Assembly (NCBI GenBank): GCA_009746045.1
Contig: RPFO01000022.1
Span: 2,298,680 to 2,362,679, forward strand
Source of the DNA: Mesostigma viride
Lineage: Eukaryota > Streptophyta > Mesostigmatophyceae > Mesostigmatales > Mesostigmataceae
DNA: 64,000 bases
Reading direction: 5' to 3'
Under the pieces are notes generated by a model. It searched no databases and was not told the origin of the DNA. It was given only the letters and a program-made list of their open reading frames with translations. Made by a program: the position numbers and the translations under genes. Shown piece after piece: positions 1,641 to 33,714 of this stretch; within the stretch, counting starts at the first letter, position 1; the number at the start of each line of letters is the position of its first letter.

Positions 1641-3345
1641 TAGGCTCGTGACTATTCTACACTACTGCTGTATCAAGGAGACAACCAGCAGGCCAGAAAT
1701 CAGCGCTGTATTCCCCTAAGCTGGGGTGTGTGGAGGTGCTGGGGCCGCGGGGGTCGCCGAGCGAGCGGGGCTTGCAAGGGCTTGTGGCCGACGCCAGATG
1801 GCCGCCCCCTTCCAGTAAACCGGCTTCCACGCCGCGGTCTGCCGGAGCTGGAGGTAGGTCGGCCATTATTAGCTCCCGTTGCCGTTGTTGCTGTGCCACC
1901 TGGGGTGAAGTCGTCCGGTCCAAGGGGTAGTGAGTCCTCTCGAGCCGCTTGCGGCGTCTGAGGAACGAAATCTTCAGTTGTCCGCCGGCCGGTTCTCAAA
2001 GATGAGCAGAAGCGGAGGCGCCCCTGCCTTACCCCGCGAGAGGGGAAGTCAGTGGGCATCCAGCTTGATCTCACCAATGAGGCCCATGCGACCAAGGATT
2101 TCTCTCTCAAACGCCTGTGCAAGCTTCCCGGAGTTCTCTGACATTCCACCAGGTCGAAGTTTTTGACGATGACGTTAAGGCTGCGCTTGGCGAGCTCGGC
2201 CTCCTCGTGAAGGTCAAGCGTCTGCTGCTGGAGCTGTGCTGCGACGGCGGAGGTTGTGGAGGTGGTGTGTTGCTTGAGCATGTCCGCCCAGGTCTGGGTG
2301 CAGGAGGAGGGGCATCGCCAGCCGGGCCAGCGGGGGCTGGCTTGGCGCGGCAATGTCCTTCACTGCCTGGGCGGTGAGGCCTGCGGTGTTTTGCAGGCAC
2401 TCAATGGCGATGGCGTTGTCCTTGAGGCGCTGGTCGATGTCGCGGAGCTGGGCAGTGATGGCGTCGGTGGTGGGAGTGGTGGCGGTGGAGGAGGCGAGGA
2501 GGGTGTCCACAGGTGGCGGTGGAGATGGTACGTAGCTCGCGATCGGGCAGTCAGCGTGCAACCCAGGGCTGCCACATCTGCAGCGAGGAGAGTCACGTGC
2601 TACTCGACGGCGTCCTGGTCGCGGATGGTGTCGGTCACAGCGGTGGGGGCATGCAAAGATCTGGGCGGCAGAGCGTCCGAGGAGGGAGCCAAGGGCGATT
2701 TGTTGCAAGTAGTGACGGGCGAGGGTGGGCAGCTTTGCAGCCACACCGGTCGTGCTGCCACCTGACGGCAGGCAAAGGCCACGGCCCTCCCCACTGTGGA
2801 GTTGGTGGCACAATTCCAAAAGCGTGTCCCACGTCTCATGAAGCAGGATGTGCAGCTGTTCATTCGGACTTTTCTGCCAAAAGTTGGGCTTAAGTCGATG
2901 GTGAAATCTTGAAACTGGCTGGGTGGCTCGGTGGGACGAGTGCGCTTGGGCTCAGGAGAGGCCGACGGCGAGGCCGAAAAAAAAAATAAAGGAGGCCGCC
3001 GGCGAGGCCGAAGAAGGGGCAGAATGTACCACTAAAGCTAGGGATCTGGTGCTGGTGCCTTCCAGGCCGGGCGGCGGAACTCTAGGCGTAGCTTCTTGCG
3101 TAGCTGCAGGGCTCAGTGCTGCCGCTAAGCTGCGCTGCGTCGAGGTGCATTTGCTCGTCATGATATTGCGTAATAGCTTCGGGAAAATATATCAGCGTGT
3201 GTGTCATAGAAAGACAAAGCGATTGTGATATTCACGGCCGAATTTGGTGCCCAAACGTGAAAGTTATGAGCTCCGCCGTCAGCCATGGCTACCTCGTGGC
3301 TAGCGCGTGGCTCGTAGCTAGCATTCCTTCCATCCATGCATCTAC
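1641..3345 (-). mobile_element. ORF1-only LINE, copy 2 (decayed)
   Basis: This is a second, diverged ORF1-only copy directly abutting copy 1 in the same orientation. ORF1 remnants run from about 1715 to 3160 on the minus strand, again with the NVIVKNFD core and the LTAQAVKDIAA block. The 5' UTR (3160-3345) matches the intact copies, including the stretch around 3225-3290. Multiple frameshifts show it is dead. A 31-bp insertion at 1674-1704 interrupts its 3' part. Confidence 0.8.
1674..1704 (-). mobile_element. 31-bp micro-insertion with 7-bp TSD
   Basis: The insert is flanked by GCTGTAT on both sides (1667-1673 and 1705-1711). The related, uninterrupted sequence at about 245-265 carries GCTGTAT once, so the empty site is visible in the same window. 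Read on the minus strand the insert ends in GGTTGTCTCCTTG, the 3' end shared by the other micro-insertions. Confidence 0.8.
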
Positions 3346-3522
3346 CTGGTTGGTGCGAGCTAAGTGCCCTACTATAAAGTACTAGCTCTGCAGGCGCCTC
3401 GATCATGCTTGATATGGTGCTGATGAGATCGAGTGGCATGCAGGCCTAGGTACAATACTCCTTGCGGACATTCATGAGCAGCGTATCCCACACGAAAAAT
3501 GGACCGCAGCATGTAGGTGACC

Positions 3523-3640
3523 TTTCTTCCTGTTGTCAAGGAGACAACCAGCGCAGGCCAGTTGTGCACGTGTACACAGGAATTAAAATTACTTCGGTGC
3601 TCCGTGACTCCCAACGGGAGCACGATTAATAAATTAATTA
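3523..3640 (+). mobile_element. 5'-truncated LINE-C-type 3' end, nested
   Basis: The insertion holds a 3' UTR end with the hairpin GTGCTCCGT/ACGGGAGCAC (about 3597-3624) and a TTAA-type tail. It is flanked by ATGTAGGTGACC (3511-3522) and ATGTTGGTGACC (3641-3652), a 12-bp duplication with one mismatch. It lies inside a minus-strand LINE-A and itself contains the 24-bp micro-insertion at 3537-3560. A close relative is at 27755-27850. Confidence 0.8.
3537..3560 (-). mobile_element. 24-bp micro-insertion with 5-bp TSD
   Basis: It is flanked by GTTGT at 3532-3536 and 3561-3565. The related unoccupied site at about 27765-27775 reads CCTGTTGTGCAC without the insert. On the minus strand the insert reads from TGGCCTGCGC to GGTTGTCTCCTTG. 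It is the shortest member of the micro-insertion family. Confidence 0.75.
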
Positions 3641-3879
3641 ATGTTGGTGACCGCGCCGTCCAGCTTTTTGGCAAGGTCGGCGGTGAGGGGCCACGTTTCG
3701 TCCCCGTACGTAAGAACAGGGAGGACCAGGACCTTACATAGGTCCTGTTTCTCTAGCTAGCCCAAGGTTGAGGGCTTACGCCATGTCGCCTGTGCAGGGC
3801 CCTGTATTGGCGTAAAGCGTGCCAGGCCAGGGAGATACGGTGGTCCACATCGGCCTCGCGCAGCTGGGGAGTAAGCTAT

Positions 3880-4050
3880 TAATTAATTAATTAATTAAAA
3901 TCATGTAGCTCCGTTGGGAGCATATGTAACACATAGCCCTGAGAAAGGGGCATCTATGGGTTTGTAATACAATCAGGGCTACAACCTGCAGGTGGAGGAT
4001 GTACAACTGTCACCTGCTCTGGGTGCACAAGGTGCACCTGCACCGCCATG
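3880..4050 (-). mobile_element. 5'-truncated ORF1-only LINE 3' end
   Basis: The 171-bp insert matches the 3' UTR end of the ORF1-only copies: the segment around CATAGCCCTGAGAAAGGGGC, a CTCC-CAACG-GGAG hairpin and a TTAA tail. It is flanked by the 10-bp duplication AGTAAGCTAT (3870-3879 and 4051-4060). This shows that the hairpin and tail define the element's 3' end. Confidence 0.8.
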
Positions 4051-4560
4051 AGTAAGCTATACCCAGCAACTTGACGCGGTCCCGATACTGGACTCGACTG
4101 AGAGCCATCAAGGAGAAAGAGGTCGCCAGGTCGGGCGGTGGCTGAGTGAGCCCAACCGCCAGGGCCTCGGCCTTCTTGCTGACCTCGAGCCCCACCACTC
4201 GGGCCTCGATTGCGAGCCAGTCAGGCCTCGTCTGCACTGTGCTCAGTGTTCTCGAAGAGGGTGGTGTCGTCTGCGTAGATGCGCGAATCTCCGTGTCGGC
4301 CCCGCCATGCCAGAATTTGTTGGCAAACCTCACCCTTGGTTCCCTACCCACAGTGCGAGCAAACCGCTTGCGCGCCTGAATCATCACGTATTCGAGCACA
4401 ATAATGAACAGGTATGGCGAGAGCACGCAGCCCTGCCACACACACTTCTGTAGAGGGCATGGTGGCGTGGACCCGTAGGAAGTGCGCACTGAGGAGGCGG
4501 ACCCTTCTTTGTTTTGCACATAACGGGCACCTGCTGGGGGGTAGTACCCCCCCCCCAAGC

Positions 4561-5138
4561 GGCTGGTACAAAATTTTTCATCATATTCATGCTATATTTT
4601 CATCATATTCATCATTGGATTTTTAGCACATGCATAGACCTGTATGGTTGAACCAGAAATGTGCACGTTAGGGGTGTCTTTTACCCTTATCCGAACATCA
4701 GGGTCCGCGCAAACTAACAAACATGGACTGCGCGCTCCCCGGCAAGCATTCCAGGGGCATGCCATGCCACAGATGTCAATAGCAACCTCAGAAAAGCTAT
4801 CAGTGACAGACTCGTGTTGGTATGTTTCCAGCAAGTACCCGTCTACCATGTGTGCATTCATGGCTGCACCCCATCGCATGAGCCAGACAGCTTGAGTCGA
4901 CGGCAAAGCCAACAATGCACACGCATGTTCTGCCACCCACATGATTCCCGGTTCCGGTCGGTCTCCCGACCCAAAGCAGATACTTTGCGAAAGCAAAGAT
5001 GCGGAAACTATGGGCAGCCGATTCTTCATGTACCTACACTTAGGCTCCGCATGCGTGATATCTCACCCGAGCCACACGTCCATTATTCCCCTCCCATATC
5101 ACCTACAACGCGACCAGTATCTACTTCACAGCCCGGGC
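4561..5138. other. 3' flank of the lysine-rich gene
   Basis: This is unique-looking sequence with no recognisable repeat, presumably 3' UTR and downstream flank of the minus-strand gene that ends at 5139. I found no TGTAA polyadenylation motif on the minus strand here, so the transcript end is not placed. Confidence 0.4.
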
Positions 5139-8100
5139 CTAGGCGACCGCCTTCTTGCGCTCCACCTTGGCACTGATTGGCTCGTCGTCACTGTCCCCAT
5201 CGTCCTTGGCCACCGCCTTTCCCTTTCCCTTGCCCTTGCCCTGCGCGCCCTTGTCCTTGGCACTCTCTTTGGCCTCCTTCTCCTTGGCCTCTGTCTTGCG
5301 CTCCTTCCTGGGCACGATCACCTCCTCGCTGTCCTGCTCCTCCTCCGATTCCTCCTCCTCGGACTCCTTCTTGGACCGCTTCTTCTTGCCAGCCGCCGCC
5401 TTCTTGTCCTTGCCGCTCGACTTGGCGGCAGAGCCTTCCTTCTTGGCCTTCTTGCCCTTGACGATCTTTTTCTTCACGGCGAGCGACTTGGACACGGTCC
5501 GTGAGGATGCCTCAACCTTGGAGACACCGCCCACACCCGCACGCTTGGCCTTGGCGGACTTGATCTCGTAGGCCTTATCGGCGCGCGCGCGGTCGAGCAG
5601 GCCGCGCTCCATGCACCTGCGCAAGTAAGCACAGGATGGACATCCATGGGTGGGACCAGGAGAACAACACGGGCACCGATTGGTGAGGCTAATGCAATAG
5701 ATTTATCAGGAGTGATCCATGGCTTTCATAACAGGGCTAGCACGGATGGGCGAGGTCCAAACTTTCAAGCACCGCCGCGGATGAGCGCAGGAATAAATGC
5801 ACGCATGGGTGATCCCAAGGCTATGCAACTACAGCAGTGATGGCCGTAGCATTTATTCAACCATAAGGTCATGAATGTACGATGGAAACTGGAGACAACC
5901 GTGGCACAGATAATGACATTTAAAAAAAGAAGGCTGTGCACAAGCAAACAATGGGGGAAGGGGGGGGGAGGGGGGGTGGGTGGGGGGGTGCATTTAGTCA
6001 CTAGTGACAGCAGGACGACATACGATATTTTGGTGAGGCATGGCTCACTGACTATCCCGGCAGGCTGCTGGAAACCTTTAGAGCCTATGGGGCAACCGCT
6101 GGCTGCGAGTGAAGCGCAGCTGTGAACCGACCCCACAGTGAGAGGACCCCACAGTGAGAGGACAAACCCGACCCAGGCCTGGCTAACCCAACGTCATGCA
6201 CCTACACATGCCACCAGGGATACTTGGCAGGAGCTACCACTTCCCAAAGCAGGCCAGCTCGGATGGCAGCACAAGGCGTATCGGTCACTACGAATCCACG
6301 TGCGTACACATCGGACCCCGCTCTCCCCAGCTGTATGGTCCCTGTATTCTTGACGATCCTATTTGGTCACTGTGTTCTTATTGCATTCGAAAACATGCGG
6401 CAACCCCCCTCAAGCACACAAGAAAATTCCACCAGACAGCCTGAGCTGCCGAAAATGTATAAACCGGCAGCCACGACATTAACACGCTACCCCCTTTGAG
6501 AACACATTGAGACGCAACTTAAGGTGGTAGAAAACTCGCTACAAACAAACTTGCTAGTACGCAGGGCTGCGGCCATGACAAAACGGAAGTGGAGATAACG
6601 CTTTACGCTCGAGATCTTGGATTTATTGAGTAAAATGAATCCACAGGTTTCATGATGACACTGGATAAAAATCCCGGGATGTAAGAAACGCATTGACGTG
6701 ACTGTATGTGGCATAAACAGGATATATGGCCACAGACATGTGTGTGCGTCGCACTCACCAGAGCAGCGCCATCTCGCTACCCGGCACCTGGCGCAGCAAG
6801 CTCTCGTAAAAGATGCGGAACGGGTCCCGCTGCACACAGGTGGGGAGGGGAGGGAAGGGGAGGGGAGGGGAGGGGGGGAAGGGGAGGGGAGGGGAGGGGG
6901 GGGGGGGGGGGGGGGCGGGGCGGGGCGGGGCGGGCGGGGCGGGGCGGGGCGGGGCGGGGCGGGGCGGGGCGGGCGGCGGGGCGGGGCGGGGCGGGGCGGG
7001 GCGGGGCGGGGCGGGGCGGGGCGGGGCGGGGCGGGGCGGGGCGGGGCGGGGCGGGGCGGGGAGGGGAGGGGAGGGGAGGGGAGGGAGGGGAGGGGAGGGG
7101 AGGGGAGGGGAGGGGAGGGGAGGGGAGGGGAGGGGAGGGGAGGGGAGGGGAGGGGAGGGGAGGGCAGGGTGACAAGCCCCAAACGTACCCACCGCACGAA
7201 GGGGATCAAGGATAGAACAGGGGTGTGGCAACGGTGAAGACACGAGCATAGGAAGCAGACGGCAACCAGTCAAAATCAAGGGAGCAAGTCAACCAGTACA
7301 CCTGGAATCCAACCAGCTGGAAGGGGTTTCTTGCCAATTGACAAGCAAACACCTGCATGAGCCGCCATCCCCTGACTTCCCGCCAAGGCGGAAATGGCTG
7401 ACTGGAAATGACCAACGATTCCACAGCTGTGTAAATTCACTGCCATGGAAGCCAAGCGCATGCTTCCCATCCCCATTCAGTCGTGAAATGGTGACAGGAA
7501 GGAAGAACAAAGAAAAGGAATGACAGCGTTACCGGGTAGGTTGGGTGGGATCTACGACCAATGATAATAAGTAATAATTGATCAAAAAAATAAATCACAA
7601 CAACAACAGCAATGATAATAACAATAATCATAATCATGACAACGACAAGTTGGGGGTCCCTTCGGGGCCCAGACTTTTTGGCGCCTGAGCGGGCGATTGG
7701 CGTGTACACCCGTGGGGTGCGTCCTCGGGAACGCCAGCGCCACGCGGGGCGCGCAGCGCGAATGGGCAGTGGCCGAGGGCGCCGAGGCGGGGGGGGCCAG
7801 CGGGAGCCCAAAAATTTCGGCTTCGTACGGCCCGTCCGCAGGCGGAGCCCCCTGCTTTTCACAGCTTCGAGCCGTTTCCTGGCACGCGCCCCGTCTGAAC
7901 ACGTTCAGGCAAGTAATTTTGCTAAAATTATTACGGAAATGGCGTGGCAAGTAGGCCGAACCGAAAAATTACTGAAAACCTCGTTCAGAAAAGTGTTCGA
8001 ACTTAATTTTTGGCACGGTCCGTCCTCGGTCTGAACTCTTTCAGTGAAAATTGAAACATTACCCGCTGCTTCTGCTCAGAAATCGTTCAGAAATTTAATC

Positions 8101-10188
8101 GTACTAAATTTTGGTACGGTTCGTCCTGTCTTCCGCATAAATTGCGCGCCTTCGGCTGCATTCAGCACGCGTTCAGAGCTCGTACGGTCCGTCTGGACAC
8201 AAAATTTGCTTTCCCTCGCCCCGTTCAGCCTGAACACTTGGTACGCTCTGTTGCGGGACAAATCGCGTTCAGCCGTTATGGTCTGAACAGCTTTCTAGTA
8301 AATCGAGTAGGATGTTTGGATAGAGATCTATTGTGAAAATATCTTCCCCCCATCCGTATATGCCCCCCGCCATTTCTCGCGCATTTTGCTGAATTCAGCA
8401 CCCGTTCAGAACTCCTGAGACTCGATCTTAGGCGGGTGTGACGGCGTTCAGGCCCGCGGTTACGGGCCCGAACTCGCGGCTCCTCAGGATTTCAGCAATG
8501 GCCCTCGGGCGTGGGGGTGCGATCAGGCCGTACGGTACGGCGCCCGCGGCGGTGTCAGGTAGTTCGGGGTTCTCCCCGACCATGCAGATTCGTAATATAG
8601 GTAGTTGATTGATAACAGGCATTACATCCAATGCGCTGAGATCAAATATAACATACTGTAACTTCCACCGAGAAAAAAAAAGTGTTCAGGAACTGCCTGA
8701 TCTTCCCATGACAGCGGTAGCATCCTAGACAACCACCACTACCTACCCCTGCAGATACTCTCTCTCCTTACCACCAAGTCGTGCCTCTTGACCGGTGCAG
8801 TTATTATGGGCCAGGCCAGGAAATTCTGTCAACAGGCTTTCCCAAAACATTATCTCTCTCGACGGTTTACTATACGATCAAAGCACAGCAGCTGTGCATA
8901 TTCATGGTACAGCGACCCGTTCCACAATCCACTTATCCCACTGACCCTGTCCTGCTCGCACTGTGCATGTGGTCCCGCAACAAACAGCCCGAATGGGGGA
9001 TGAGGGAGGCTCGCAAAATGTTCACTATTTTGTCCTTGAGCAGCTCAAGCTACTAAAGGTCCTATCAGATGGCCCAGGCAACACGCACGACAGGACGAAT
9101 AGGCACGGCCACCTTCCAAGTCTCACCACATGGCCACGTGGCGCAAGGCATGTGCCAGGGTCTGTGCAGCCACGAGCAAGCACATATCCAACACACCATT
9201 CTGCATCTTACAAGCCCATCTCGACCCCTCGGCCCCTCCCAGTCTACATGAGAACAGTTGCATCCTCCTTCAAAGCAGCCATGCCCAGCAACCCACAACA
9301 CACATGCGTATAGAAAACCAATCAGCGTACCGAAGGTAATGGCATGCCAGCACACAGTGCATGTCCCACCGCACCCAAAATCACAGCGAAAGAAAAGGAG
9401 CCAGATGCTTTGGACATCATGTACACGAGGTCGTGCAATCACAGGTTGCATTCTGGCACTCCGCCCGCCCGCCGCCCGCCCGCCCGCCCGCCCGCGCCGC
9501 CCGCCCGCCCGCCCGCCCGCCCGCCGCCCGCCCGCCCGCCCGCCCGCCCGCCCGCCCGCACACAGACACTAGCCATCACAACTACAATTGAAACCACCAT
9601 GGGGGGGGCAGACACCCCGCAATATGCCCTAAATGTTATTGCTACAACGCCCACCTTTTCAGGCGGGTCCATCTTCTGCCCGGGAAGGTCATACGACTTC
9701 TTCTTGGCCGGCGCGCCATCCTTGTCTTCGGATTTGGCCCCCTTGCCAGCCTTTTTTGCCACCGCGACCTCCTTCTTTTCCGTCTTCACCTTCTTCTCTG
9801 TCTTGACTGCATCCTTATCTTCTTTGACCTCCTTCTTTTCTGTTGTGACTTCCTTCTTTTCGGCCTTGACAACGACGTCGCCCTTCTTACTCGCGGCCGC
9901 CTCCTGCTTTACCTTCACTGTCTCCTTGGCCTCTTCTTTCACCACTTTCTTCCGCTTGGCCGGCTTCTCCTCGCCATCGTCGTCATCTGCCTTCTTGGCG
10001 GCCGCCTTCCCTTTCTCCATGCCGTCCTCGTCCGACTCTTTCTTCACCCCCGTTTCCTTGGCCGACTTCTTCAGGGAAAACTTCTTTGCGGTCTTGGCGT
10101 CGCCGGCGTCCGAATCCTTCAGTATCGGCATATCCTCACTTGGCTCGCCATTGCGGTCAACCGGTGGATCTGCACTTCCACCTTCCAT
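5139..10188 (-). CDS. lysine/glutamate-rich probable nuclear protein, three exons
   Basis: The gene model is complement(5139-5616, 6759-6829, 9655-10188), 360 residues. Splice sites are GTGGGC (exon 1 end), TGTGCAG (exon 2 acceptor), GTGAGT (exon 2 donor) and TTGCGCAG (exon 3 acceptor). The phases fit: 0 at the first junction, and a TG|G tryptophan codon split at the second. Residues 1-170 and 220-350 are low-complexity K/E/A tracts with basic clusters such as PAKRKKVV, typical of chromatin or nucleolar proteins. The only folded-looking part spans the exon 1/2/3 joins (about residues 165-225), with [12 protein letters not shown] and FYESLL..VPGSEMA, then MERGLL. From memory this block recalls a conserved segment of uncharacterised plant proteins, which I could not check. 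The long first intron carries G/C-rich arrays. No enzyme motif was seen and the function is unknown. Confidence 0.75.
5617..6758 (-). other. intron 2 of the lysine-rich gene
   Basis: The intron contains a poly-G/GGGGGT tract (about 5954-5990) and a 16-bp direct repeat around 6128-6162. No open frame in it matches a family I know. Confidence 0.5.
6841..7166. repeat. (GGGGA)n/(GGGGC)n microsatellite
   Basis: This is a 326-bp pentanucleotide array of GGGGA changing to GGGGC and back to GGGGA. On the transcribed minus strand it is a pure C/T-rich tract that runs straight into the acceptor of exon 2 of the lysine-rich gene, so it probably serves as its polypyrimidine tract. The plus strand should form G-quadruplexes. 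Confidence 0.95.
7890..8690. repeat. cluster of GTTCAG/CTGAAC motifs in intron 1
   Basis: Nine GTTCAG (7903, 7983, 8085, 8171, 8223, 8267, 8404, 8446, 8684) and four CTGAAC (7895, 8031, 8230, 8283) occur in 0.8 kb, against about 0.4 expected by chance on both strands. Several are inverted pairs, for example CTGAACACGTTCAG. A second recurring motif, close to TACGGTCCGTC, appears about four times between 7826 and 8195. This may be a degenerate satellite or a binding-site cluster. Confidence 0.6.
9461..9559. repeat. (CCCG)n microsatellite
   Basis: A CCCG/CCG array lies about 100 bp inside intron 1 of the lysine-rich gene. On the transcribed strand it is G-rich, just downstream of the exon 1 donor. 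Confidence 0.9.
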
Positions 10189-15055: not shown

Positions 15056-15118
<63 letters not shown>

Positions 15119-15600
15119 ACCACCAATCCCCCTTCGGGTTTGATGCCGAATGCGAACAAGCACATCATTCCCAGTGGAAACCTAGTAGGTCCAATGGACA
15201 GCATAGTTGCCTCACGTAATGGACAGGTAGCCTCGGATAGCTTTCCTTGGGGAGACCCTGTACGCCCTTGGCTATGGTGGAGGCATGCTGTCTTCTTAGC
15301 AGCTATATGCTTTGCTTGCATGTGGAGACAGCTGCACCAACTCACCCTGTGTTCTTATACTACTCTACTGTGTGCCCATGGTTGTCTCACTGGATACCGG
15401 TGATGCCCATCTGGGACTATTCTGCGATTGTCTGTGTGTGCTGATGTTTCCTGCTGGCTGGACTTTGACAGATGCTCTTTGGGATCATCGTCGCCAGCGT
15501 CTCGGTGTACCTGTACAACTACGTGCTTGACACCCCGGCCAACTTGCAAGTGGTAACGGTCGACACTAACTCCGAAAAATCCCAGCAGCCTTCCAGTTAG
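11410..15600 (+). CDS. nucleotide-sugar transporter (SLC35A/CMP-sialate-UDP-galactose type), four exons
   Basis: The gene model is 11410-11724, 11888-12574, 14236-14313 and 15472-15600, 402 residues, all junctions phase 0 with GT-AG borders. The protein is hydrophobic throughout, as expected for a Golgi/ER ten-helix carrier. Family marks are MAEFVKMCISAAL (helix 2), INNLQFAILYRMDPTSAQV with LKIAFTAVFF, SQLRWLSL, then SSIANVYTEYILKR and LMKYADNIIK followed by IFATSGGMFLT, and a short soluble C-terminus. It should exchange a nucleotide sugar for nucleoside monophosphate; the exact substrate cannot be read from sequence. An insertion of about 50 residues rich in E, H and P sits between the middle helices, longer than usual. 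A TGTAA motif at about 16139 may mark the polyadenylation site. Intron 2 holds a large G-rich array. Confidence 0.93.
12585..12990. repeat. (GGGGGGAA)n-type minisatellite
   Basis: About 400 bp of G-runs spaced by AA, starting some ten bases after the exon 2 donor of the transporter gene. It is strongly G-quadruplex prone. The long Gly/Glu/Lys and Pro/Phe reading frames over it come from the repeat. Confidence 0.95.
14510..14659. repeat. 50-bp tandem repeat, three copies
   Basis: Three essentially identical 50-bp units start at 14510, 14560 and 14610 (unit begins AGGCAGCAGGTTGGGGGTGC). They lie in intron 3 of the transporter gene. Confidence 0.95.
15058..15117. repeat. (CA)n microsatellite
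   Basis: About 30 perfect CA units in intron 3 of the transporter gene. Confidence 0.97.
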
Positions 15601-16400: not shown

Positions 16401-16532
16401 CGTTCTACAGTTGTCTCACTTAGTACTATATAGATCTTTCTCTCAGGACTTCCTTTTGATGACAAATTCCTCTCCTTGATATGTGACAAAGTCCTTAATT
16501 AATTTATGAATTAATTAACACATAACACATAT

Positions 16533-18439: not shown

Positions 18440-18477
18440 ATACACGAAGGGGCTAAAAGAAAAAGTAAGGAGTGCAG

Positions 18478-19830
18478 GTTTTCATGCGGCTCATCCTGAT
18501 CCGCCTGCGCACTGCCCTGGACGGCCACCTCAGCGAGACTCAGCTTGGCTTCCGTCCAGGCCGCAACGCAGTACAGGCGCTCTTCGCTCCTCGCACCCAT
18601 ATTGTGGAGGAACTGCACCGCCTTCAGCCTGGTTCACGAGTCCCCTCTGCACCTTGTGCTGGTGGACTAATTCATCAAAGCCTTCGATTCGCGGTTTCCT
18701 GGCCTGCGCTGTGGGACATGCATCCTCGCTCTGTTCCGGATCCCCCTCCCCCTAATTGCTGTCATCCGCAACCTGTATGAAGGGTCCACCACCTCGGTGC
18801 GCACTTTCTACGGGGCCACGCCACCATGCCCTTTACAGAATTAAGGGTGTGTGGCGCAGCCTGGCTGCGTGCTGTCGCCCTACCTGTTCAATATTGTGGT
18901 CGAATACGTAATGATTCAGGCGCGCAAGGGATTTGCTCGCATTGTGGGTACAGGGAAGCACACTTCACGCTTTACACCAATATTACCGGGCCTTGTGGCG
19001 CAAGCCCTTGGGCAATTGAGCTACTGTAGAGAAACAGGACCTCCCTGTTCCTGGTCCTCCCTGTTCTTACGTAGTAACGGAGCCGAGACGTGGACTCTCA
19101 GGTGCCGCCGACCTTGCCAACAAGCTGGATGGCGCGGTCACCAGCATGCTGCGGTCACTTTTCCGTGTAGGATACGCGCTGTGCACATGCTCATGTCCGC
19201 AAGGAGGACTTGTACCTCGGCATGCCACTTATTACTGTACCAGCACCATCAAGCAGCGACGCCTGCTGCCGAGTAGGGCACTTAGCTCGCACCATGCAAC
19301 CAGGTAGACACCTCAAGTGGCCCCCGGGTCTCTGCAGGGCTGTGCCCCGCTCCGCCGGGCCGGCACCTCCTCACATGAGCCGGGCCCAGCCAGGTTAGAC
19401 GCCGCAAGGCCCGCACCTTCAAAGAGCAGCTAGTAGAGGACATGGGTGGCCTAGGCCTCTCCCGGTGATTTGGAAAAAGATGATGGACATGGCCAAGTGG
19501 GCCCAGGTCATAGTAGAGGACTACAAACCCCCTGCAGTGGGGTCTAGCTGTGGGGAAGCCGCGCGTTCAGTGCACACGTGCATGGGAAGCATGCTAGACA
19601 AGACCCCTAGGGTCGCGGGCACCATAGCTATATAATAGTATATTTCTGGCCTGCGCTGGTTGTCTCCTTGATCAATAGAATAGTAGGACTCTTTTTGTAG
19701 ATAGCTTGTAGATAGCTTTTAGACCGGTAGGATTGCGTGCATGTACCCATCCATCCATCCATCCACCGGGGTTAACGCTTCGTGACTCACCAACGGGAGC
19801 ACCGGTCGGCGAGTAATAATAAGTTAATTA
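18478..19830 (+). mobile_element. LINE-A copy (RT fragment, decayed)
   Basis: Broken frames encode the RT palm region (HLSETQLGFRPGRNAVQ, EYVMIQARKGFARIVG) and C-terminal codons, followed by a 3' UTR with a CCATC microsatellite, the hairpin around CGTGACTCACCAACGGGAG (about 19780-19801) and a short TTAA tail. It is 5'-truncated and not functional. Confidence 0.85.
19641..19678 (+). mobile_element. 38-bp micro-insertion with 7-bp TSD
   Basis: It is flanked by AATAGTA (19634-19640 and 19679-19685) inside a LINE-A 3' UTR. It contains TTTCTGGCCTGCGC and GGTTGTCTCCTTGAT. Confidence 0.65.
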
Positions 19831-20378: not shown

Positions 20379-20454
20379 ATAATCGAGGAGACAACCAGCG
20401 CAGGCCAGAAATCGGGAGAATCCGGACCATGGTAGCTCGAGCCTGCCGTTATCT
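20379..20454 (-). mobile_element. 76-bp micro-insertion with 10-bp TSD (longest copy)
   Basis: TGCTGAAATA flanks the insert at 20369-20378 and 20455-20464. Read on the minus strand it extends the family in the 5' direction through GGCTCGAGCTACCATGG, then GGATTCTCCCGATTTC, ending GGTTGTCTCCTCGATTAT. Confidence 0.8.
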
Positions 20455-21466
20455 TGCTGAAATATGACTGGGGGCACTAAATTACATCTCTAATGTGAGT
20501 TGTCCATGCACTTGTTGGGGGTACTACCCCCAAGTATACGCCAATATTGCGCCCCCGCCCCTGCTCCCAGCCGCCGCCGCCCGCCCGGCCGCCCTGCCTG
20601 GCCGGCCCCGCTGGGCCCCCGGCCCCGCCTATAGGTCAGCGGCGGACTACCTAGCCCCCCCGCTGCTCGGCCCACTTGGCGACGTCCCGTCAGACATGCC
20701 TCCTTTCACCTCTCGCGAGGTCACGGAGGCGGTCCAGCGCCTGCGTTATGACGCAGCCACCGGCTCAGACGAGATTCCTGCCGCAGTTGTGAAACCTGCA
20801 GCCGAATTCGAGGACACCGTAACTTGTTATGCTGCTCTTCCGGGACATCTGCAACCGCCTTCTGCTGTCGTCGCAACCGCCCCCAGCAGCATGGCAACAC
20901 AGTTTTCGCACGATGCTGTACAAGAACAAGGGGTCGCCAGCCGACCCCGGCAACTACAGAGGGGTGTGCATTAATTCAAAGTGCCCCCCTCAAGCTTCTT
21001 ATGCGGCTCATCCAGTGAACCGCCTGCGCACGGCCCTGGACGGTCACCTCAGCGAGACTCAGCACGGCTTCCGTTCAGGTCGCAACACAGTACAGGCGCT
21101 CTTCGCTACTCGCCGACTGGTGGAGGAACTGCCACGCCTTCAGCCTGGTGAGTCCCCTTTGCACTTTGTGCTGGTGGACTTCATCAAAACCTTCGATATT
21201 TCGGTTTTCTGGCCTGCGCTGTGGGACATCCTCGAGCTGTTCCGGATCCCCCGCCCCTTTATTGCTGTCATCCGCAACCTGTATGAAGGGTCCACCACTT
21301 CGGTGCGCACTTCTTACGGGACCACGCCACCATGCCCTTTACAGAAGTGCGTGTGGCAGGGCTGCGTGCTGTCGCCCTACCTGTTCATTATTGTGGTCGA
21401 ATACGTAATGCTTCAGGCGCGCAAGCGATTTGCCCGCATCGTGGGTAGGGAACCAGGGGTGCAGGT

Positions 21467-24388: not shown

Positions 24389-24431
24389 ACCAACGGGAGC
24401 ACGAGTCTAATTAATTAATTAATTCATTAAT
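24389..24431 (+). mobile_element. 43-bp LINE-A 3' end inserted in a LINE-A tail
   Basis: TAATATTGCGCT occurs at 24377-24388 and 24432-24443. Between them lies only the last arm of the LINE-A hairpin (CCAACGGGAGCACGAGTC) plus its TTAA tail. It is an extreme 5' truncation with a 12-bp duplication. Confidence 0.75.
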
Positions 24432-24489
24432 TAATATTGCGCTTTAAATAGAAAAAGACGCTAATTAGGGCTGGGTATGCCCTGGTTAC

Positions 24490-26895: not shown

Positions 26896-26899
26896 TCCT

Positions 26900-27385
26900 C
26901 CCTTCGAACACCGTGCATTTCCTTACCTTTGAGTACATGGCGGACAAGCTTCTGTTCCTCAAACGTCGCAATTAAGCTGCTCGAGAGGACTCGCTACACG
27001 CTGGACAACGACTTGATCGACGACATGCAGCTAGGGTCATGACCCTGGCGCAGCAACAACGGCGATAGGCCGGCTGTAATGAATTCATTGATTAAGAACA
27101 TAACTCCGTTCAATGGGAGTATTGACGTAACACATGGCCCTGAGAAGGGGGCCTATGGTTTCTGGGCTACAGCCTGCAGGTGGGAGGTGTAAACAGCCAC
27201 CTAGTCTGGGTGACGACCTGACCCCCGCTCAGCAGCAGCAGCAGCGACGCGACCGGCCTGTGGCCATGCAGCTAGAATACCTCCGCCACAAGCAGGACCC
27301 CCAGAAGCCCGATTGGTGTACTGGAGGGGGGCGGGGACCTTCGATGATCAACCGCAAGATGTGGACGCCCCCTGCGGGCTAGACG
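26900..27385 (+). pseudogene. LINE ORF1 remnants, plus strand
   Basis: Two ORF1 pieces encode the conserved C-terminal RNA-binding blocks: FEYMADKLLFLKRRN at about 26930 and DDLTPAQQQQQRR at about 27212. Between them (about 27080-27200) is a minus-oriented 3' end of the ORF1-only family. All are fragments. Confidence 0.65.
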
Positions 27386-27397
27386 GTAGCTATAAGG

Positions 27398-27420
27398 AAG
27401 CTGGTTGTCTCCTTGATAAT
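27398..27420 (+). repeat. probable micro-insertion family copy
   Basis: It contains GCTGGTTGTCTCCTTGAT, the shared 3' end of the micro-insertions. The flanking duplication is unclear. Confidence 0.45.
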
Positions 27421-27754
27421 AGCACTAGCTTAATTAATTGTATCCATTGGTAGTCACTGCCGCCATGGCAGCCAATAGCCATGCTTAGAATGTTTGCCTA
27501 GCTGTACCACCATACCTAGTCACGTGCACCGCTAACACACGGTACACAACCAGCCATAGCCTTAGCTTAGTCCTTAATGTACAGCGGCATGCTACGTCCT
27601 GGCTATGCTCAGATTATTTGCCCACGCTCCTAGTTGTTATGATATGCTCACATGGCGGTCTTATTGCACCCACAGATTTTGCCGGATCGTTTACCGAGTC
27701 GGATATTTTCAGCTGTGGCATGCCTTTTGCATGAAGGAGAAAGGGGGTCTCTGC
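27421..27754. other. unassigned spacer
   Basis: No gene or repeat was recognised. Confidence 0.3.
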
Positions 27755-28054
27755 CCTTTCTACCTGTTGTGCACACGTACACACGGGGATTAAAAGCACT
27801 TCGGTGCTCCGTGACTACCCAACGGGAGCACGAGTTATTAATTAATTAATTTCTCTGGGTGCACTCATGACCTGCACCTCTGGACAATGATGTATTCCAG
27901 CAGCTAAGGTTCGGACATGCCGGGTGGAAGATGATTGTGGCAAGGCAATAGCTAGCTAGGGCATGCATCATCTCAGCAGAGAGTAACTCTCTGCATGGGC
28001 AACGCATGACTAAATACTCATCATCTGGTGTGGGGCCTGCATCATAGGCATGCA
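27755..28054. mobile_element. LINE-C-type 3' end (+) abutting ORF1-only 3' UTR fragment (-)
   Basis: 27755-27850 reads GGATTAAAAGCACTTCGG, then CCAACGGGAGCACGAG and a TTAA tail on the plus strand. 27850-28050 matches the minus-strand 3' UTR of the ORF1-only family, including AGAGAGTAACTCTCTGCATG. The two families meet at the TTAA tail. Confidence 0.65.
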
Positions 28055-28835
28055 AGCTAGAGAAACAGGACCTGGTCCTCCCCGATCTTACGTAGTACGG
28101 GGCCGAGACGTGGACTAGTCTCACTGCCGACCTTGCCAACACTGAGCTGCCGGATGGCGCGGTCACCAACATGCTGCGGTCAATCTTTCTGTCGTGTAGG
28201 ATACGCTGCTCATGTCCGCAAGGAGGACTTGTATTTTGGCATGCCACTTATCACCAGTAGGCCATCAAGCAGCGGCGCCTGATGCTAGTACTAAGGGCAC
28301 CTAGCTCGCACCAACCAGGTAGACACCTCACGTGGCCCCTCTGCAGGGCTGCGCCTCGCCCAGCCGGGCTGGCACCTCCTCACGTGGGCCGGGCCCAGCC
28401 AGGTTAGACGCCGCAAGGCCCGCACCTTCAAAGAACAGCTAGTAGAGGTCATGGGGGGCCTAGGCCTCTCCGTGATTTGGAAAAAGATGATGGACAAGGC
28501 CGGCCAAGTGGGCCCAGGTCGGTCATAGTAGAGTCCTGACTACAAACCCCCTGCTGTGGGGAAGGAGCGTGTCTGCAAACGAGGGAGGCATGCTAGCCAA
28601 GCTAGACCCCTAGGGTCGCCAGCTAGCATCATAGATCCTATAGAGAATAGGAGTGTTTTGTAGATAGCCTGTATAGATAGCTTAGTTAGACCGGTAGGAT
28701 TGTGTGACGTGTGTACCCATCCATCCACCCATCCATCGGGTTTAATGTTCCGTGAGTCATCCCCCACGGGAGCACGAGTTTAATTACTGATTAATTAATT
28801 AATTGATTGATTGATTGATTGATTAATTAATTAAT
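28055..28835 (+). mobile_element. LINE-A copy, C-terminal part and 3' UTR
   Basis: It encodes decayed C-terminal LINE-A codons (matching 22200-22437 and 23838-24060), then the 3' UTR with CATCCATCC repeats, the CCCCCACGGGAGCACGAG hairpin remnant and a TTAA/TTGA tail. It is 5'-truncated. Comparison with the 20515 copy shows the uninterrupted site of the hAT insertion (about 28290). Confidence 0.8.
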
Positions 28836-28959
28836 TAATTAATTATTAGGCATGCATGGCCAGTGGCGTGACGTCGGCTAGGCCTTACTACTGACTACAC
28901 TACAGCTATTAAAAAATTATAACATATAATTATAATCCCGACTAAAATAATATATGTTA

Positions 28960-29150
28960 TTTAATTATAACATGACTCCGTTGGGAGATCATATAGCACA
29001 TATTCCCTTGATGGATGGATATGCAGGTGGGCGAAGCCGCGAAACCGAACTAGTCTAACTCGATCTAAGCTAATCTGATCTAGAAAACCCTAGCTACTCT
29101 ACTCAACAAAGCACCCCTTCCTCTTGGGGGGAGGGGGCTTGCCCACACTA
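28960..29150 (-). mobile_element. LINE-B 3' end, 5'-truncated
   Basis: On the minus strand the segment begins near the last codons (GGCAAGCCCCCTCCCCCCAA, encoding Gly-Lys-Pro-Pro-Pro-Pro-Lys), then the LINE-B 3' UTR with the CTCCCAACGGAGTC hairpin and an AT-rich tail at about 28960. Confidence 0.75.
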
Positions 29151-30460
29151 CAGCTATAGTCCGGCCTAGGCTGGGGTTGCTGAGCTAGGGTGCTGGGGCA
29201 GCGCGGGGGTCGCCTGCCAGGGCTTCATGGTCGACGTAGATGACCGTCCCCTTCCAGTATACCGGCTTCTTCCCTGCCGCTGTCTGCCGGAGCTGGAGGT
29301 AGTTTGGCCATATAGCTCCCGTCGCCGTTGTTGCGCTGCGCCAGGGTCAAGTTGTCGTGCAGAACAGCAGAGTGTAGCTAGGGGATCCTCTCGAGCCGCT
29401 TGCGGCGTCTGAGGAACGAAATCTTGTCTGCAATGTTCCCAAAGATGGGCAGCATGCAGCGGAGGCGGTCCCGCCTTACTGCCGCGAGCGGGGAAGGCGC
29501 CAAGGCGGAGGGCCTCCAGCGCTTGAGCTCACCAAATATGAGGCCCATGGTGGCAAGGATTTTGACCGCAAACGCCGGTGTGCAAGCTTCTCGGAGTTCT
29601 CACCTTCCATCAGGTCGAAGTTCTTGACGATGACGTTAAGGCTGCGCTTGTCGAGCTCGGCCTCCTCACAGAGGTTGAGCGTCTGTTGCTTGAGCTGTGC
29701 GGCGATATGGCTGAGGTGGTGGTGGTGGTGTGGTTCTGCACGGCGGCCCAGGTCTGGGGGGGGGGAGCATCGCCTGCTGGGCCATGCAGTGGGGGCCGCT
29801 GGCTTGGCAGCAATGTCCTTAATTCACCACCTGGGCGGTGAGGCTGCGGTGTTTTGCAGGCACTCGATGGCGATGGCGTTGTCCTCCAGCCAGGGAGGCG
29901 CTTGTCGATGTCACGGAGCTGGGCGGTGATCGATGGCGTCGGTGGTGGAGGTGGAGGTGGTGGAGGTGGAGGCGAGGAGGGTGGAGGTGGTGGTGGAGAT
30001 GGTGGAGAGGAGGGGGAGCTCGGCAGCCAGCGTGCTGCCCATTGCTGCCACATAGATCTGCAGCGTGGGGAGTCACACTCGTCAGGGCAACTGCGCTTGG
30101 GGTCATGATCACGCGACGCTGCTGGCGAGGCGAGCCCGCCGGGAGCCGACTGAGGCGACCACTAGTGCTTGGCTAGTGGCGCCGCTGCCTTCAGGGCCGG
30201 AGGGCGAATCTGTGCACAGCCAGAGCTGCAGCCGGATTATCAGGGCTCAAGCGCAGCCGGGCCAGGCTGCGTTGCGTAGAGGAGCGTTTGCTCGTCATAA
30301 TATTGCGTGATAGCTTCGGGAAAATATATCAGCGTGTGCGTCTCAGAGAGACGAAGCGATTGTGATATTCACGGAAAATAAATAAGGTGCCCAAACGTGG
30401 AAGTTATGAGCTCCGCCGTCAGCCATGGCTATCTCGTGGCTTGTGGCTCAACGTGCATGG
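29151..30460 (-). mobile_element. ORF1-only LINE, copy 3 (decayed)
   Basis: Diverged ORF1 pieces on the minus strand (29240-30290) and a well conserved 5' UTR (30290-30460) that matches the intact copies. Multiple frame breaks. Confidence 0.75.
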
Positions 30461-30549
30461 AATACTTGCTACATTACTTATGAGACAACCTTGATCTCCC
30501 AATGGAGTCATGTTATAATTTAGTTTAATTTTATTTTATTTTTATTTTA

Positions 30550-30680
30550 GATAGAATAGAGCCAGTAGAATTGTTTGTCCATCCATACATCCATTGGGAT
30601 AGTATAGGGAGCACGAGTCTAATTAATTGATTAATTAATTAATTGGGATAGTATAATCCGTGACTAACCAACGGGGGCAC
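30550..30680 (+). mobile_element. LINE-A 3' end fragment with nested 36-bp copy
   Basis: A LINE-A 3' UTR piece (GAATTGTTTGTCCATCCAT, then CCAACGGGGGCAC at 30666-30680) is split at 30606-30641 by a still shorter LINE-A tail insertion. Confidence 0.65.
30606..30641 (+). mobile_element. 36-bp LINE-A tail insertion with 13-bp TSD
   Basis: ATTGGGATAGTAT occurs perfectly at 30593-30605 and 30642-30654. The insert is only AGGGAGCACGAGTCTAATTA plus more TTAA/TTGA tail, i.e. the last bases of LINE-A. Confidence 0.8.
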
Positions 30681-30944
30681 ATTAAATTAAATTAAATTAA
30701 ATTATAACATGCCTCCGTGGGGAGGTCATGTAGCACATATTTCATGATGGATGGGGTGGAGGAAGCCGCGTGATCGAACTATCCTAACTCTATCTAGAAA
30801 ATCCTAACTGCACTACTCATCAAAACGCCTCCTCCGCTTGGGGGGAGGTGGCTTGCCCACAGGGTCGGGCGTGTGCGCCTTGACAATCTTCTTCCACCGC
30901 GTCTTGGCCTGCATGGCAGTCCAAAGACGGGAGAGAGAGTGGAT

Positions 30945-32904
30945 TAATTAATTAATTATCAACATCACTCCGTTGGGAGTAGATGTAGCACATAGCCCTG
31001 AGAAGGGGCATATGGCTTTTAATACATTCTAGGCTACTTCATGCAAGGGTGGGAATGTAAGCTACCCCTGCTCTAGGTGCACCAAGGCACCTGCACCCTC
31101 ATGGTCTATCACGCTATGCCCGGGTAAGGGGGGAGCATGCCTGTGAGGGAGGAAGATCATCATGGCTATACAAGAGCTAGGACATGGCTTCTCGACAGAG
31201 AGCATCTCTCTGCATGGCATAGCATGGCTAAATTCTTAATGCAACATCCATGGGGGTCCCATTATAGACAAAGCATGGCTAAATGTTGAAGGCATCATCC
31301 ATGGGGGCCATTATGGGCGCACATGCGCGTGGGCCACATGCTAGGCTAAGCCTTACTAATCTACACTACTGGTATATATATTCCTAGTCTGAGGTGGCAG
31401 GAGGGGGCTGCCAGGGCTTGTGGTCAACGTGGATGACCGCCCCCCTCCAGTATACCGGCTTCCCCCTTGCGCTCTGCCGGAGCTGAAGGTAGGTCGGCCA
31501 TAGCTCGCGTCGCCGTTGTTGCTGGGCCAGGGTCAAGTCGTCGTCCAGCGTGAAGCGAGTCTCCGAGAGCTTCTTGCGGCATTTAAGGAACGCCAGCTTG
31601 TCCGCCATGTACTTAAAGGTGAGGAGCACGGGTGCCGGGCCAGCCTTCCCCCGCGCGCGGGGGAGGCGGACAGCCGACATGTCCAGCTCACCAGTGAGTA
31701 ACATGGGGGCAAGAATGGCGCGCTTAAATGCCTCAAGAAGGCTCGTGGAGGTCTCACCTGCCTGCTGGTCGAAGTGCTTGACGATGACATTGTGGCGGCG
31801 CCGCGCGATGTCGGCTTCCTCGCGAAGGTCGAGGGCTTGTTGCTTGAGTTGTGCCGAGATGGTGGAGGTGGTGGAGGTGGTGTGCTGCTTAAGCAAGTCC
31901 GCCCAGGTGGAGGGAGCATCGCCGGCCGGGCCAGCAGGCGCCGGCTTGGCGGCAATGTCCTTCACCGCCTGGGCGGTGAGGCCGGCGGTGTCATGCAAGC
32001 TCTCAAGGGCGTTGGCGGTGGCTTGAAGGCGGTGGTCGAGGTCGAGGAGCTGGGCTTTGATGTCGGCAGTGGAGGCGGAAATGGCAGTGGAGGTGGAGGC
32101 GGCGGCGGTGGAAATGTGAGGAAGTTCAGCAGTCAGCGTGCCGCCGATTGCTGAAATGTCGGCAGCAAGGGGGGTCACGTGCTGCTGAAAGGCTTCCGTG
32201 AGGATGGAACGGAATGCGGGGGCGGAGATGTCCAGATGGAGCCCAGATCTCGCCGTCAGACTTCTGGAGAAGAGAGTTGAGGACGGCGTGTTGGAGTTGG
32301 GGGCGGGGACACCCGAACATCTGGCTGATGTTGTGCCAGCGTCGGCCGTCTTCGACGAGGAGGCGTCCAGTGGCGTGGAGATGGAGGCACAGGTCGTAAA
32401 GCGAGGCGTAGTCCCCGAAGAAGATGTGATGCATAGCATCACTCGGAGAAATGGTGGTCCAGTCGTAATCATCGACCTGGAAAGGTTGGGGCCGAAAGCG
32501 CGGTTCCGAGAAGCGTGTTTCCGCCCAGCGTGGCCCTCCAGTTTTGTCGGCGGGGCGGGTGCGTTTAGGGTCAGGCGATGCCGATGGCGAGGCATTGAGG
32601 CCGGGAGGTTGCTGGGCGACCACCAGTGCACGACTAGTGTCACCGCTGCCTGCCGGATCTGGCGAAGCGGCAGCCTCAGCTGCCGCATTGTTGAAGGCGA
32701 GCGCATCCGCCAAACTGCGTTGCGTCGACGGGCGTTTGCTCGTCATATATTGCGTCGTGGATTCGGAAAATTATACCAGCATGTGCGTCTTAGAAAGACG
32801 AAGCGATAGTGATATTCACGACTAAATTCGGTGCTCAAACGTGAAAGTTATGAGCGCCGACAGCCATGGCTACCTCGTGGCTCGTGGGATCCATCCTACC
32901 TCGT
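30945..32904 (-). mobile_element. ORF1-only LINE, copy 4 (young, full length)
   Basis: The 1960-bp element is bounded by perfect 12-bp copies of GAGAGAGTGGAT (30933-30944 and 32905-32916) inside LINE-B ORF2. Its order on the minus strand is a 5' UTR of about 160 bp, ORF1, a 3' UTR of about 440 bp, the hairpin ACTCCCAACGGAGT and a TTAA tail. It is nearly identical to the copy at 49440-51346. There is no ORF2. Confidence 0.92.
31384..32746 (-). pseudogene. LINE ORF1 protein (copy 4), one 4-bp frameshift
   Basis: The frame from ATG 32746 runs to about 32235, where a 4-bp insertion relative to copy 5 shifts it. The second frame continues to the stop at 31384. Otherwise about 452 codons are intact. 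The N-terminal domain includes MHHIFFGDYASLYDLCLHLH (unknown fold). The middle is a Ser/Thr/Ala-rich coiled coil. The C-terminal half is the usual LINE ORF1 RNA-binding region (HNVIVKHFD, then ARGKAGPAPVLLTFK) followed by the C-terminal block LDDDLTLAQQQRRRELWPT. In LINEs this protein coats element RNA and acts as a chaperone. The near-absence of other damage implies recent activity. Confidence 0.82.
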
Positions 32905-33045
32905 GAGAGAGTGGATGCGGTGCTCAAACTGGGCTGGGACCACGAGGTCGTCCAGCAGCATCTGAACGTAGTTGGTGACAGGTTTCCCTACCCTTTTGGG
33001 AATGTCCTTGGGGCCAGGCCAGGTCAGAATGACGGGGGCACATGT

Positions 33046-33300
33046 TATTAATTAATTGTCGCGGAAGTATTCCGGCCGGCCACAGGTCGCGTCGCTGCTG
33101 GCTGCTGAGCGGGGGTCAGGTCGTCATCCAGCGCGTCCAGGGGAGGTCATGCAACCTCTTGCGACGAGAGAGGAACCGCCGGCCGCTCAACCTCTATGGA
33201 CCTGAAGGTGAGCAGGACTGGTGGGGGAGTGCCACGCATGAGCTAGCGGGCCGGCGCGCCTACGTCTTGAGCCCACCTCACCAAAGCTAAGCATCTGCGT
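33046..33300 (-). pseudogene. LINE ORF1 C-terminal fragment
   Basis: The minus strand encodes a decayed ORF1 end containing the LDDDLTPAQQ block (about 33105-33145). It abuts the truncated LINE-B across a short TTAA tract. It ends near 33240-33300. Confidence 0.5.
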
Positions 33301-33304
33301 CGAT

Positions 33305-33550
33305 CAGCCTACTTGTACTTATTGTATTTGCACCCAAGTACATGCAGTACGTTGCACCCGCACCTATTGATCGATGCGGAGAGAGCATCCTGTGGCGCCT
33401 GCCCACTCGTGGCAGTGAGATCGAAGCTAGTGCAAGCAAGTCGAGGGCGCCGTCCCTCTACACTAGAGCTCCTCCTCGTTGTGTATAGGGGTTGTGAGGT
33501 TCCTTTACTTTGTACTGGCATCCAAGTAACGCAGTCACATGCATGCTAAA
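33305..33550 (+). repeat. dispersed repeat family X, copy 2
   Basis: It matches 26640-26895 in order: TTGCACCC, GGAGAGAGC, CCTGCCCACT, GGCAGTGAGA, GGGCGCC, TTGTGTATAGG, GTTCCTTTACT, and a degraded GTAACGCAGTCAC hairpin end. Confidence 0.7.
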
Positions 33551-33666
33551 TCATCGATTTATTAAAAACTCAGTCTATTGCCGGCCGGCAAGCAAGGCGT
33601 ATTGCAGCTAGGCTGACAATGCATACGCCCCTCGGTGTGCGGATGGCTCCCTGATGCGTGCAGCCA

Positions 33667-33714
33667 TGGTCCGGATTCTCCCGATTTCTGGCCTGCACTG
33701 GTTGTCTCCTTGAT
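33667..33714 (+). mobile_element. 48-bp micro-insertion with 13-bp TSD
   Basis: It is flanked by ATGCGTGCAGCCA (33654-33666) and ATGCATGCAGCCA (33715-33727), one mismatch. The insert starts TGGTCCGGATTCTCCCG and ends GGTTGTCTCCTTGAT. Confidence 0.8.

Follow-up and report, generated by a model that had tools for sequence, protein, structure and literature searches.

Where do inserts of a few dozen nucleotides come from that share one 3' end and are framed by target-site duplications, and how are pieces of this size inserted? The question is raised by a stretch of 64,000 nucleotides of the Mesostigma viride genome (the window), in which the initial annotation had proposed a separate ultra-short retroposon family. 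A motif search of the window with the 13-mer GGTTGTCTCCTYG gave exact matches at six sites, all of them at the places for which a common fixed 3' end had been claimed; two-mismatch matches at 15380 and 16796 were at chance level.

The insert at 1674-1704 (minus strand) is 31 nt long, has the family 3' end at 1674 and is framed by GCTGTAT (7/7) at 1667-1673 and 1705-1711. The 24-nt insert at 3537-3560 (minus strand) lies between copies of GTTGT (5/5) at 3532-3536 and 3561-3565. At 19641-19678 (plus strand), 29-30 nt of element sequence (to 19670) and an 8-nt tail, ATCAATAG, are enclosed by an AATAGTA duplication (7/7). The insert at 20379-20454 (minus strand) measures 76 nt including the 5-nt tail ATTAT and has the 10-bp duplication TGCTGAAATA (10/10); 68 nt of it are 100% identical to a copy bearing a reverse transcriptase (RT), and its last four element letters differ. 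For the 48-nt insert at 33667-33714 (plus strand), the 13-bp duplication is 12/13 identical. The sixth site (27400-27415, plus strand), suspected as a probable copy, does contain the motif but matches 16 nt of the family 3' end only and shows no convincing duplication (3-4 bp at best; null P 0.71).

Duplications are thus present at five of the six motif sites, four exact and one at 12/13 according to a letter-by-letter check, and the lengths of 5, 7, 7, 10 and 13 bp given in the initial annotation were confirmed with this one restriction. Empty sites for the inserts at 1674 and 3537 align, as had been proposed, with paralogous repeats in the window at about 245-265 and about 27765-27775, respectively; a third one at 28561-28656 is plausible for the insert at 19641 and has diverged surroundings. 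The 5' ends are ragged and nested overall, but the nesting is imperfect because the copy at 1674 lacks 2 nt internally and carries some additional 5' letters. Under a loose null, the duplications of four window copies were weak when taken singly (P 0.05-0.17), and none was detected for the copy at 1674 because of its indel. The significance of the duplications therefore comes from the genome-wide set and the empty sites, not from single window copies. The fixed 3' end, the ragged 5' ends, the variable duplications and the empty sites agree with target-primed reverse transcription, as the initial annotation had held.

The genome-wide search that had been suggested gave 8,580 exact copies of the 13-mer in 439.9 Mb versus 13 for the reversed word, with duplications above the control and a shared 3' end; a 16-mer located 20-35 nt from the 3' end gave 5,761 copies versus 0 in the control. 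A sample of 96 copies found by the 13-mer was analyzed, consisting of 90 of the first 100 listed motif places on one contig plus the window copies. Their matched length ranged from 10 nt to ~1.2 kb. When aligned to a 203-nt consensus of the 3' end, 58 of the 96 matched over ≤ 80 nt, 38 over ≤ 30 nt and 23 over 13-16 nt, and 27 matched ≥ 195 nt. The short fraction may be overstated, since the intact array unit described below ends in GGTTGTCTCTTTG, which differs from the searched word by one letter, and its subfamily, perhaps richer in long copies, lies outside the sample. Exact-length counts were uneven, with no copies of 9 or 10 nt and one of 6 nt versus 1.19 in the background. The nucleotide following the 3' end was A in 95/96 copies, and ATA followed in 72/96. 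A search for other ends of the element, which drew on family-selected loci, found 83 of 100 matches to end ≤ 20 nt from the usual 3' end.

The longer copies lead to the source. The inserts were checked for missing duplications, for the lack of a shared 3' end and for an origin from internal pieces of larger repeats, and they trace to the 3' end, as opposed to internal sequence, of a larger element whose RT matches a Mesvir1 protein at 99%. Two long copies (L038 and L068) have an open RT frame; L027 contains a degraded RT piece and L041 no RT frame, so that two of the four translated long copies are without an intact RT. Of 119 RT matches scored, each listed at 100%, 62 lie in a 1,020-codon open frame (hand count). 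An intact single ORF of 1,018 AA sits in an array whose 4,552-bp units are arranged head to tail: three RT matches in C307 are spaced 4,552 bp apart, L071 has head-to-tail junctions, and L068 contains two element copies in a row. In the window, a 40-bp piece at 1575-1614 (minus strand) is 95% identical to an internal stretch of the element's 3' UTR, 123-163 nt away from the 3' end; 16 bp matching the RT frame at 21203 were taken as chance.

From alignment and structure prediction, this source is classified as a Penelope-like element (PLE) with a predicted N-terminal GIY-YIG endonuclease and a putative C-terminal telomerase-like RT. The modelled fold of the RT of a relative was closest to telomerase (top 15 and top 17 rows in two structure comparisons); no PLE entry was among the matches listed in either comparison, which excludes nothing. 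The N-terminus of the Mesostigma ORF is in register with the GIY-YIG region of relatives bearing PF01541 (VIYAIYN...YVGQT, R115, H119, E157). PF01541 was above the cut-off at residues 51-165 in five of nine relatives scanned, these five having been chosen because they were already listed with PF01541 (16/120 rows, hand count), and one more was just below. Pfam found no family in the 1,018-AA ORF at E ≤ 1 and no more than a sub-threshold RVT_1 in the protein P0063, for which a PDB sequence search gave nothing beyond a defence RT (E 0.0052) and one hit at E 0.55. Hence, the endonuclease and RT assignments rest on the alignment and on the model of a relative, and the absence of an APE domain by Pfam is weak; Exo_endo_phos was found by Pfam in the unrelated LINE of the window. 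The element combines a predicted telomerase-like RT and GIY-YIG domain in the same ORF with tandem arrangement, variable target-site duplications and 5' truncation, as expected for a PLE. Of the features of canonical Penelope/Poseidon elements, a C-terminal GIY-YIG was not found, the ORF ending shortly after the RT, and Rfam detected no hammerhead ribozyme at E ≤ 5 in seven element loci. The position of the putative endonuclease N-terminal to the RT is that of permuted PLEs, which we take to be the Naiad/Chlamys type, placed by domain order. A separate ultra-short family is thus not supported: the window inserts are the short end of a range reaching ~1.2 kb and belong to a PLE of ~4.5 kb.

The inserts are probably extreme 5'-truncated copies of this autonomous Mesostigma viride PLE, produced by target-primed synthesis with a fixed start and frequent abortion. 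The endonuclease would nick where the duplicated strand starts A^TA, and the exposed 3' end would serve as the primer, the element RNA being copied from a single fixed position (...GGUUGUCUCCUUG). Many events may end within ~80 nt of synthesis, and often within 15 nt. Joining of the short cDNA, often at 0-3 nt of microhomology, would follow a cut in the other strand at a distance of 5-25 bp, and a few element letters would end up between the two copies of a duplication; repair after the aborted synthesis would be normal. Some copies elsewhere in the genome comprise only 5-15 letters, which suggests that the copying enzyme often stops almost at the start. We consider it somewhat more likely than not that most insertions are abortive in this sense, the RT starting at one nucleotide and stopping after 5-80 nt and the cell completing the insertion. 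It is rather unlikely that the PLE protein instead copies short pieces of RNA, or a small RNA that is non-autonomous and has the PLE 3' end, without any abortion on full-length RNA. The excess of 13-16 nt copies over longer ones does resemble a separate component, and the PLE protein of Anolis takes 5'-truncated RNA in vitro (PMC11167929); however, the 5' ends are ragged without a common short 5' end, and the lengths continue into kb-long copies.

For the duplications, a first null with loose settings was weak and was replaced by a swapped-flank null. A duplication score ≥ 7 was reached by 27/69 truncated copies versus 0.85% of 2,711 swapped-flank pairs, and a score ≥ 8 by 18/69 versus 0.30%; 30/69 remained below a score of 5 and 17/69 had no duplication of at least 4 bp. 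Among copies of 7-8 nt, a duplication was present in three of seven only. The clearest 20 duplications start with ATA in 17 cases (hand count). An element-blind scan for close direct repeats (346 kb, both strands, 893 hits) recovered inserts of 5-7 nt within duplications of 11-14 bp, namely CTCCTTG (14 bp), CTCCTTG (11 bp) and CCTTG (12 bp), and all three duplications start with ATA. Microhomology at the 5' junction averaged 1.07 nt over 15 of 21 scorable junctions, where ~0.33 nt is our own estimate for equiprobable letters; extra letters were present at 4/21. Such microhomology and extra letters, together with the copies devoid of a duplication, would also suit templated repair, i.e., an end-joining polymerase patching breaks with abundant RNA or DNA snippets without the element endonuclease. 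This is improbable given the nucleotide-precise 3' end, the frequent ATA and the duplications of 5-25 bp, which point to a specific nick and a primed start and away from random breaks. Most matches in the family-selected loci lie near the usual 3' end.

The small size in the window, the shared 3' end and the duplications would also fit a short, promoter-bearing SINE that parasitizes an unrelated LINE. We judge this very improbable, since longer copies run on into the RT frame and the intact unit, the insert body being PLE 3' UTR continuous with that frame, and since neither Rfam nor ARAGORN (bacterial settings) detected known RNAs or tRNAs in the window; a source among such structural RNAs and tRNAs was rejected on the same result. 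The LINE at 51717-54948 of the window was considered as a source too, and no motif copy was found near it. Folding of three forms of 32-73 nt indicated no unusual stability (z -1.13, -0.19 and 0.43). A 20-mer of the family had one match in viral contigs, to a phage-like contig unrelated beyond ~20 letters and taken as chance, and none in the genome-contig collection searched. That the inserts are DNA transposon ends or what deletions have left of longer insertions, for which no support was found beyond the short size, is hardly credible with ragged one-sided ends, variable duplications at the insert edges and an RT frame in long copies, and is contradicted by the perfect duplications around 5-15 nt inserts.

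The element is of a known kind, and the nano-insertions are its unusual part. Among the titles listed for PLEs, abortive target-primed reverse transcription and Mesostigma in the open-licence literature searched, none was on nano-insertions of this kind. If abortive target-primed insertion is correct, the genome contains thousands of them, many below the limit of any repeat finder, and their lengths record how processive the RT of a young PLE is in its first steps. When duplications enclose an insert of just 5-15 nt, it would normally be read as a random small indel; thus, failed retrotransposition may account for part of the load of small insertions in genomes. The PLE insertion mechanism is still largely open (PMC11167929). 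With its many intact, near-identical copies and its thousands of footprints, a young element offers nucleotide-level in vivo evidence, which bears on the fixed start site, the A^TA target and early termination, and the Mesostigma PLE is a good candidate for biochemistry.

Among known systems, permuted GIY-YIG PLEs (Naiad/Chlamys) have the same order of an N-terminal GIY-YIG and a C-terminal telomerase-like RT in one ORF. They occur in the green lineage and were reportedly described by Craig et al. in 2021; to our knowledge, very short copies are not among the findings of that study. 5'-truncated LINE copies (L1, CR1) have a fixed 3' end, a ragged 5' end and variable target-site duplications like the Mesostigma inserts, but involve an APE-type endonuclease, carry a poly(A) or microsatellite tail and are usually hundreds of nucleotides long. 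The Penelope/Poseidon element PAc of Anolis differs in its C-terminal endonuclease and its hammerhead motif, and insertions of a few nucleotides are not described in the excerpts of PMC11167929; it shares an RT start at a defined RNA site, by which the 3' end of the copies is set, AT-rich cut sites and tandem arrangement (PMC11167929). The Penelope families of Adineta vaga are of kb size and carry both direct and inverted pLTRs, and no family of 5-80 nt inserts is described in the excerpts of PMC3846280. They resemble the Mesostigma PLE in 5'-truncated copies, short target-site duplications and partial tandems, and one described 5' junction likewise has microhomology (excerpts of PMC3846280).

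The motif GGTTGTCTCCTYG was matched exactly six times in the window, at the five inserts described in the initial annotation (1674-1704, 3537-3560, 19641-19678, 20379-20454 and 33667-33714) and at 27403. The last was proposed as a sixth copy and carries the motif with no clear duplication. No mismatch occurs in the flanking duplications of 7, 5, 7 and 10 bp and a single one in that of 13 bp; both claimed empty sites align, and the observation is confirmed. The copy at 1674 lacks 2 nt internally and carries additional letters at its 5' end. For a stretch of 64 kb, 1.25 copies would be expected, compared to the six found (P = 0.0018) in a window picked after the copies had been seen. Tested singly against a permissive null, the duplications in the window carry little weight, so the case was made genome-wide. 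At 16470 (+ strand), TCTCCTTG is followed by ATA and an imperfect duplication (TGACAAATTCC / TGACAAAGTCC) was noted by eye; this is a possible seventh copy of 8 nt.

In the 439.9-Mb assembly, the 13-mer from the 3' end of the element occurs 8,580 times versus 13 times for the reversed word, and a 16-mer located 20-35 nt inward has 5,761 occurrences versus 0. Lengths were measured for 96 copies (90 of the first 100 listed places and the six from the window) by alignment to a 203-nt consensus of the 3' end. The match was ≤ 30 nt in 38 copies, ≤ 80 nt in 58 and ≥ 195 nt in 27, and 23 copies fell at 13-16 nt, where the search word sets a length floor near 13 nt; the sample leaves out a subfamily ending in CTTTG. 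By pairwise alignment, the longest truncated copies were traced to about 1.2 kb; two pairs match further because they are segmental duplicates. In two truncated RT-bearing cases, L038 and L068/L070, the shared sequence starts at the same letters, AGTATCACTGC, with unlike upstream flanks, which is either coincidence or a preferred stop.

Duplications were scored as length minus 3 per mismatch in the 69 copies shorter than 195 nt, using as control 2,711 pairings of the 5' flank of one copy with the 3' flank of another. A score ≥ 7 was reached by 27 copies versus 0.85% of control pairings, and a score ≥ 8 by 18 versus 0.30%. The score was below 5 in 30 copies and 17 had no duplication, which may reflect the age of a copy, gaps at its boundaries or a duplication that was never made. 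The 3' end is directly followed by A in 95 of the 96 copies, by AT in 86 and by ATA in 72. Since the upstream duplication copy also starts with ATA in 17 of the 20 clearest cases (hand count), ATA belongs to the target. These 20 duplications measure 6-25 bp, the search having stopped at 25 bp, and enclose inserts of 10-197 nt. Unusually long perfect duplications flank a 35-nt insert (C1_983156+, locus L011; 20 bp) and a 25-nt insert (C1_2802426+, locus L057; 25 bp or more, up to where the search stopped). Among 21 junctions, four have 1-3 extra letters and two are gapped; mean microhomology was 1.07 nt over the 15 scorable ones, which include the three nano-insertions described below. Two tail-to-tail copy pairs were seen, one 4 bp apart reading CTTG-ATAT-CAAG (G000:C1 3239983/3240000) and one 21 bp apart (G000:C1 1663668/1663702), consistent with a second insertion at palindromic ATAT or within the duplication of the first copy.

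Still shorter insertions were sought with an element-blind scan for direct repeats ≥ 9 bp spaced by up to 24 nt in 346 kb, which were selected around family copies and do not give a genome-wide number. Among 893 hits (both strands counted), five spacers end in at least 7 letters of the element 3' end, two of them already selected by the 13-mer and three not. The latter three are nano-insertions: CTCCTTG in a 14-bp duplication (L046), CTCCTTG in an 11-bp duplication (L018) and CCTTG in a 12-bp duplication (L053). ATA opens each of these duplications without having been a condition of the scan. In a second count, 3'-end suffixes of exact length followed by ATA were compared with shuffled sequence. 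Suffixes of 7 nt occurred 3 times (shuffled mean 0.15) and of 8 nt 4 times (0.07), with a duplication at three of these seven. For 5 nt the count was 13, against a mean of 3.39 and a maximum of 11 among the shuffles; it was 1 for 6 nt (mean 1.19), 0 for 9 and 10 nt, 4 for 11 nt and 1 for 12 nt, values too uneven to fix the length distribution at the short extreme.

Of four long copies translated, two (L038, L068) continue into an open RT frame that contains GIPMGTNCAG and YIDD. The family RT matches the predicted Mesostigma viride protein P0063 at 99% with the whole query covered. In the own-genome protein search, 119 of 2,399 candidates were scored, all listed at 100%; 62 of the 119 lie within a 1,020-codon open frame (hand count). 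On contig C307, three RT matches are spaced exactly 4,552 bp. One fetched array unit, L071, encodes 1,018 aa from the first ATG, has about 556 bp from stop to 3' end, ends in GGTTGTCTCTTTG (one letter off the common form) and has head-to-tail neighbours across short, differing spacers with ATA at their start. Pfam recognised no domain in this ORF; its N-terminus aligns with Pfam-recognised GIY-YIG domains of relatives, found above cut-off at residues 51-165 in five of nine scanned relatives, the five having been chosen for carrying the label. For a confident model of the relative P0069 (mean pLDDT 89), telomerases were closest in both structure comparisons. By domain make-up, the source is a Penelope-like element (PLE) with a permuted endonuclease, as in the clades named Naiad and Chlamys. 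The initial interpretation is partly supported; the element is of an already known kind.

Besides the family, the window holds a LINE (51717-54948, - strand) in which the endonuclease domain Exo_endo_phos and the RT domain RVT_1 were recognised and whose RT has 62-63% identity over 56-59% of the query to its nearest proteins, one from Mesostigma. Further ORFs noted with it lie at 31384-32706 and 49923-51194, and pieces are shared among several truncated relatives throughout the window. At 42848-44209 and 59664-61199 there are simple tandem repeats of great length that are open in several frames (HVLMCSCA-type and EGRK-type).

The Mesostigma PLE copies stand out by their lengths. To our knowledge, it is unusual for more than half of the sampled footprints of a family to be shorter than about 80 nt and for the smallest, of 5-7 nt, to sit within perfect duplications; targeted searches of open-licence literature listed no comparable family. 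The partial text of the M. viride genome paper (PMC6947507) names PLEs among the repeat classes in a figure legend; no mention of short copies was found in it. Beyond the anatomy, target, lengths and source observed, we infer that the target would be nicked, with the duplicated side starting at A^TA, and that copying would start at a fixed place on full-length element RNA. Reverse transcription would often terminate within the first tens of nucleotides, which is how we read the 58 copies ≤ 80 nt and the 23 at 13-16 nt; repair would then finish insertion of the short cDNA, its ends presumably joined by microhomology. The main rival, copying from short RNA fragments, would give the same anatomy.

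Inverted element pieces near a copy (L007, L042, L023) recall the inverted repeats described for PLEs. Fragments at 1575-1614 (- strand) and L050 1-364 share an internal 3' end 123 nt before the usual one, possibly a second start site by analogy with the Anolis PLE, for which two are reported. According to PMC11167929, AT-rich DNA is cleaved in vitro with the Anolis PLE, reverse transcription then starts at a set place within the RNA, and this place fixes the 3' end of genomic copies. The constant 3' end of the Mesostigma copies and the A^TA at the start of their duplications fit this scheme.
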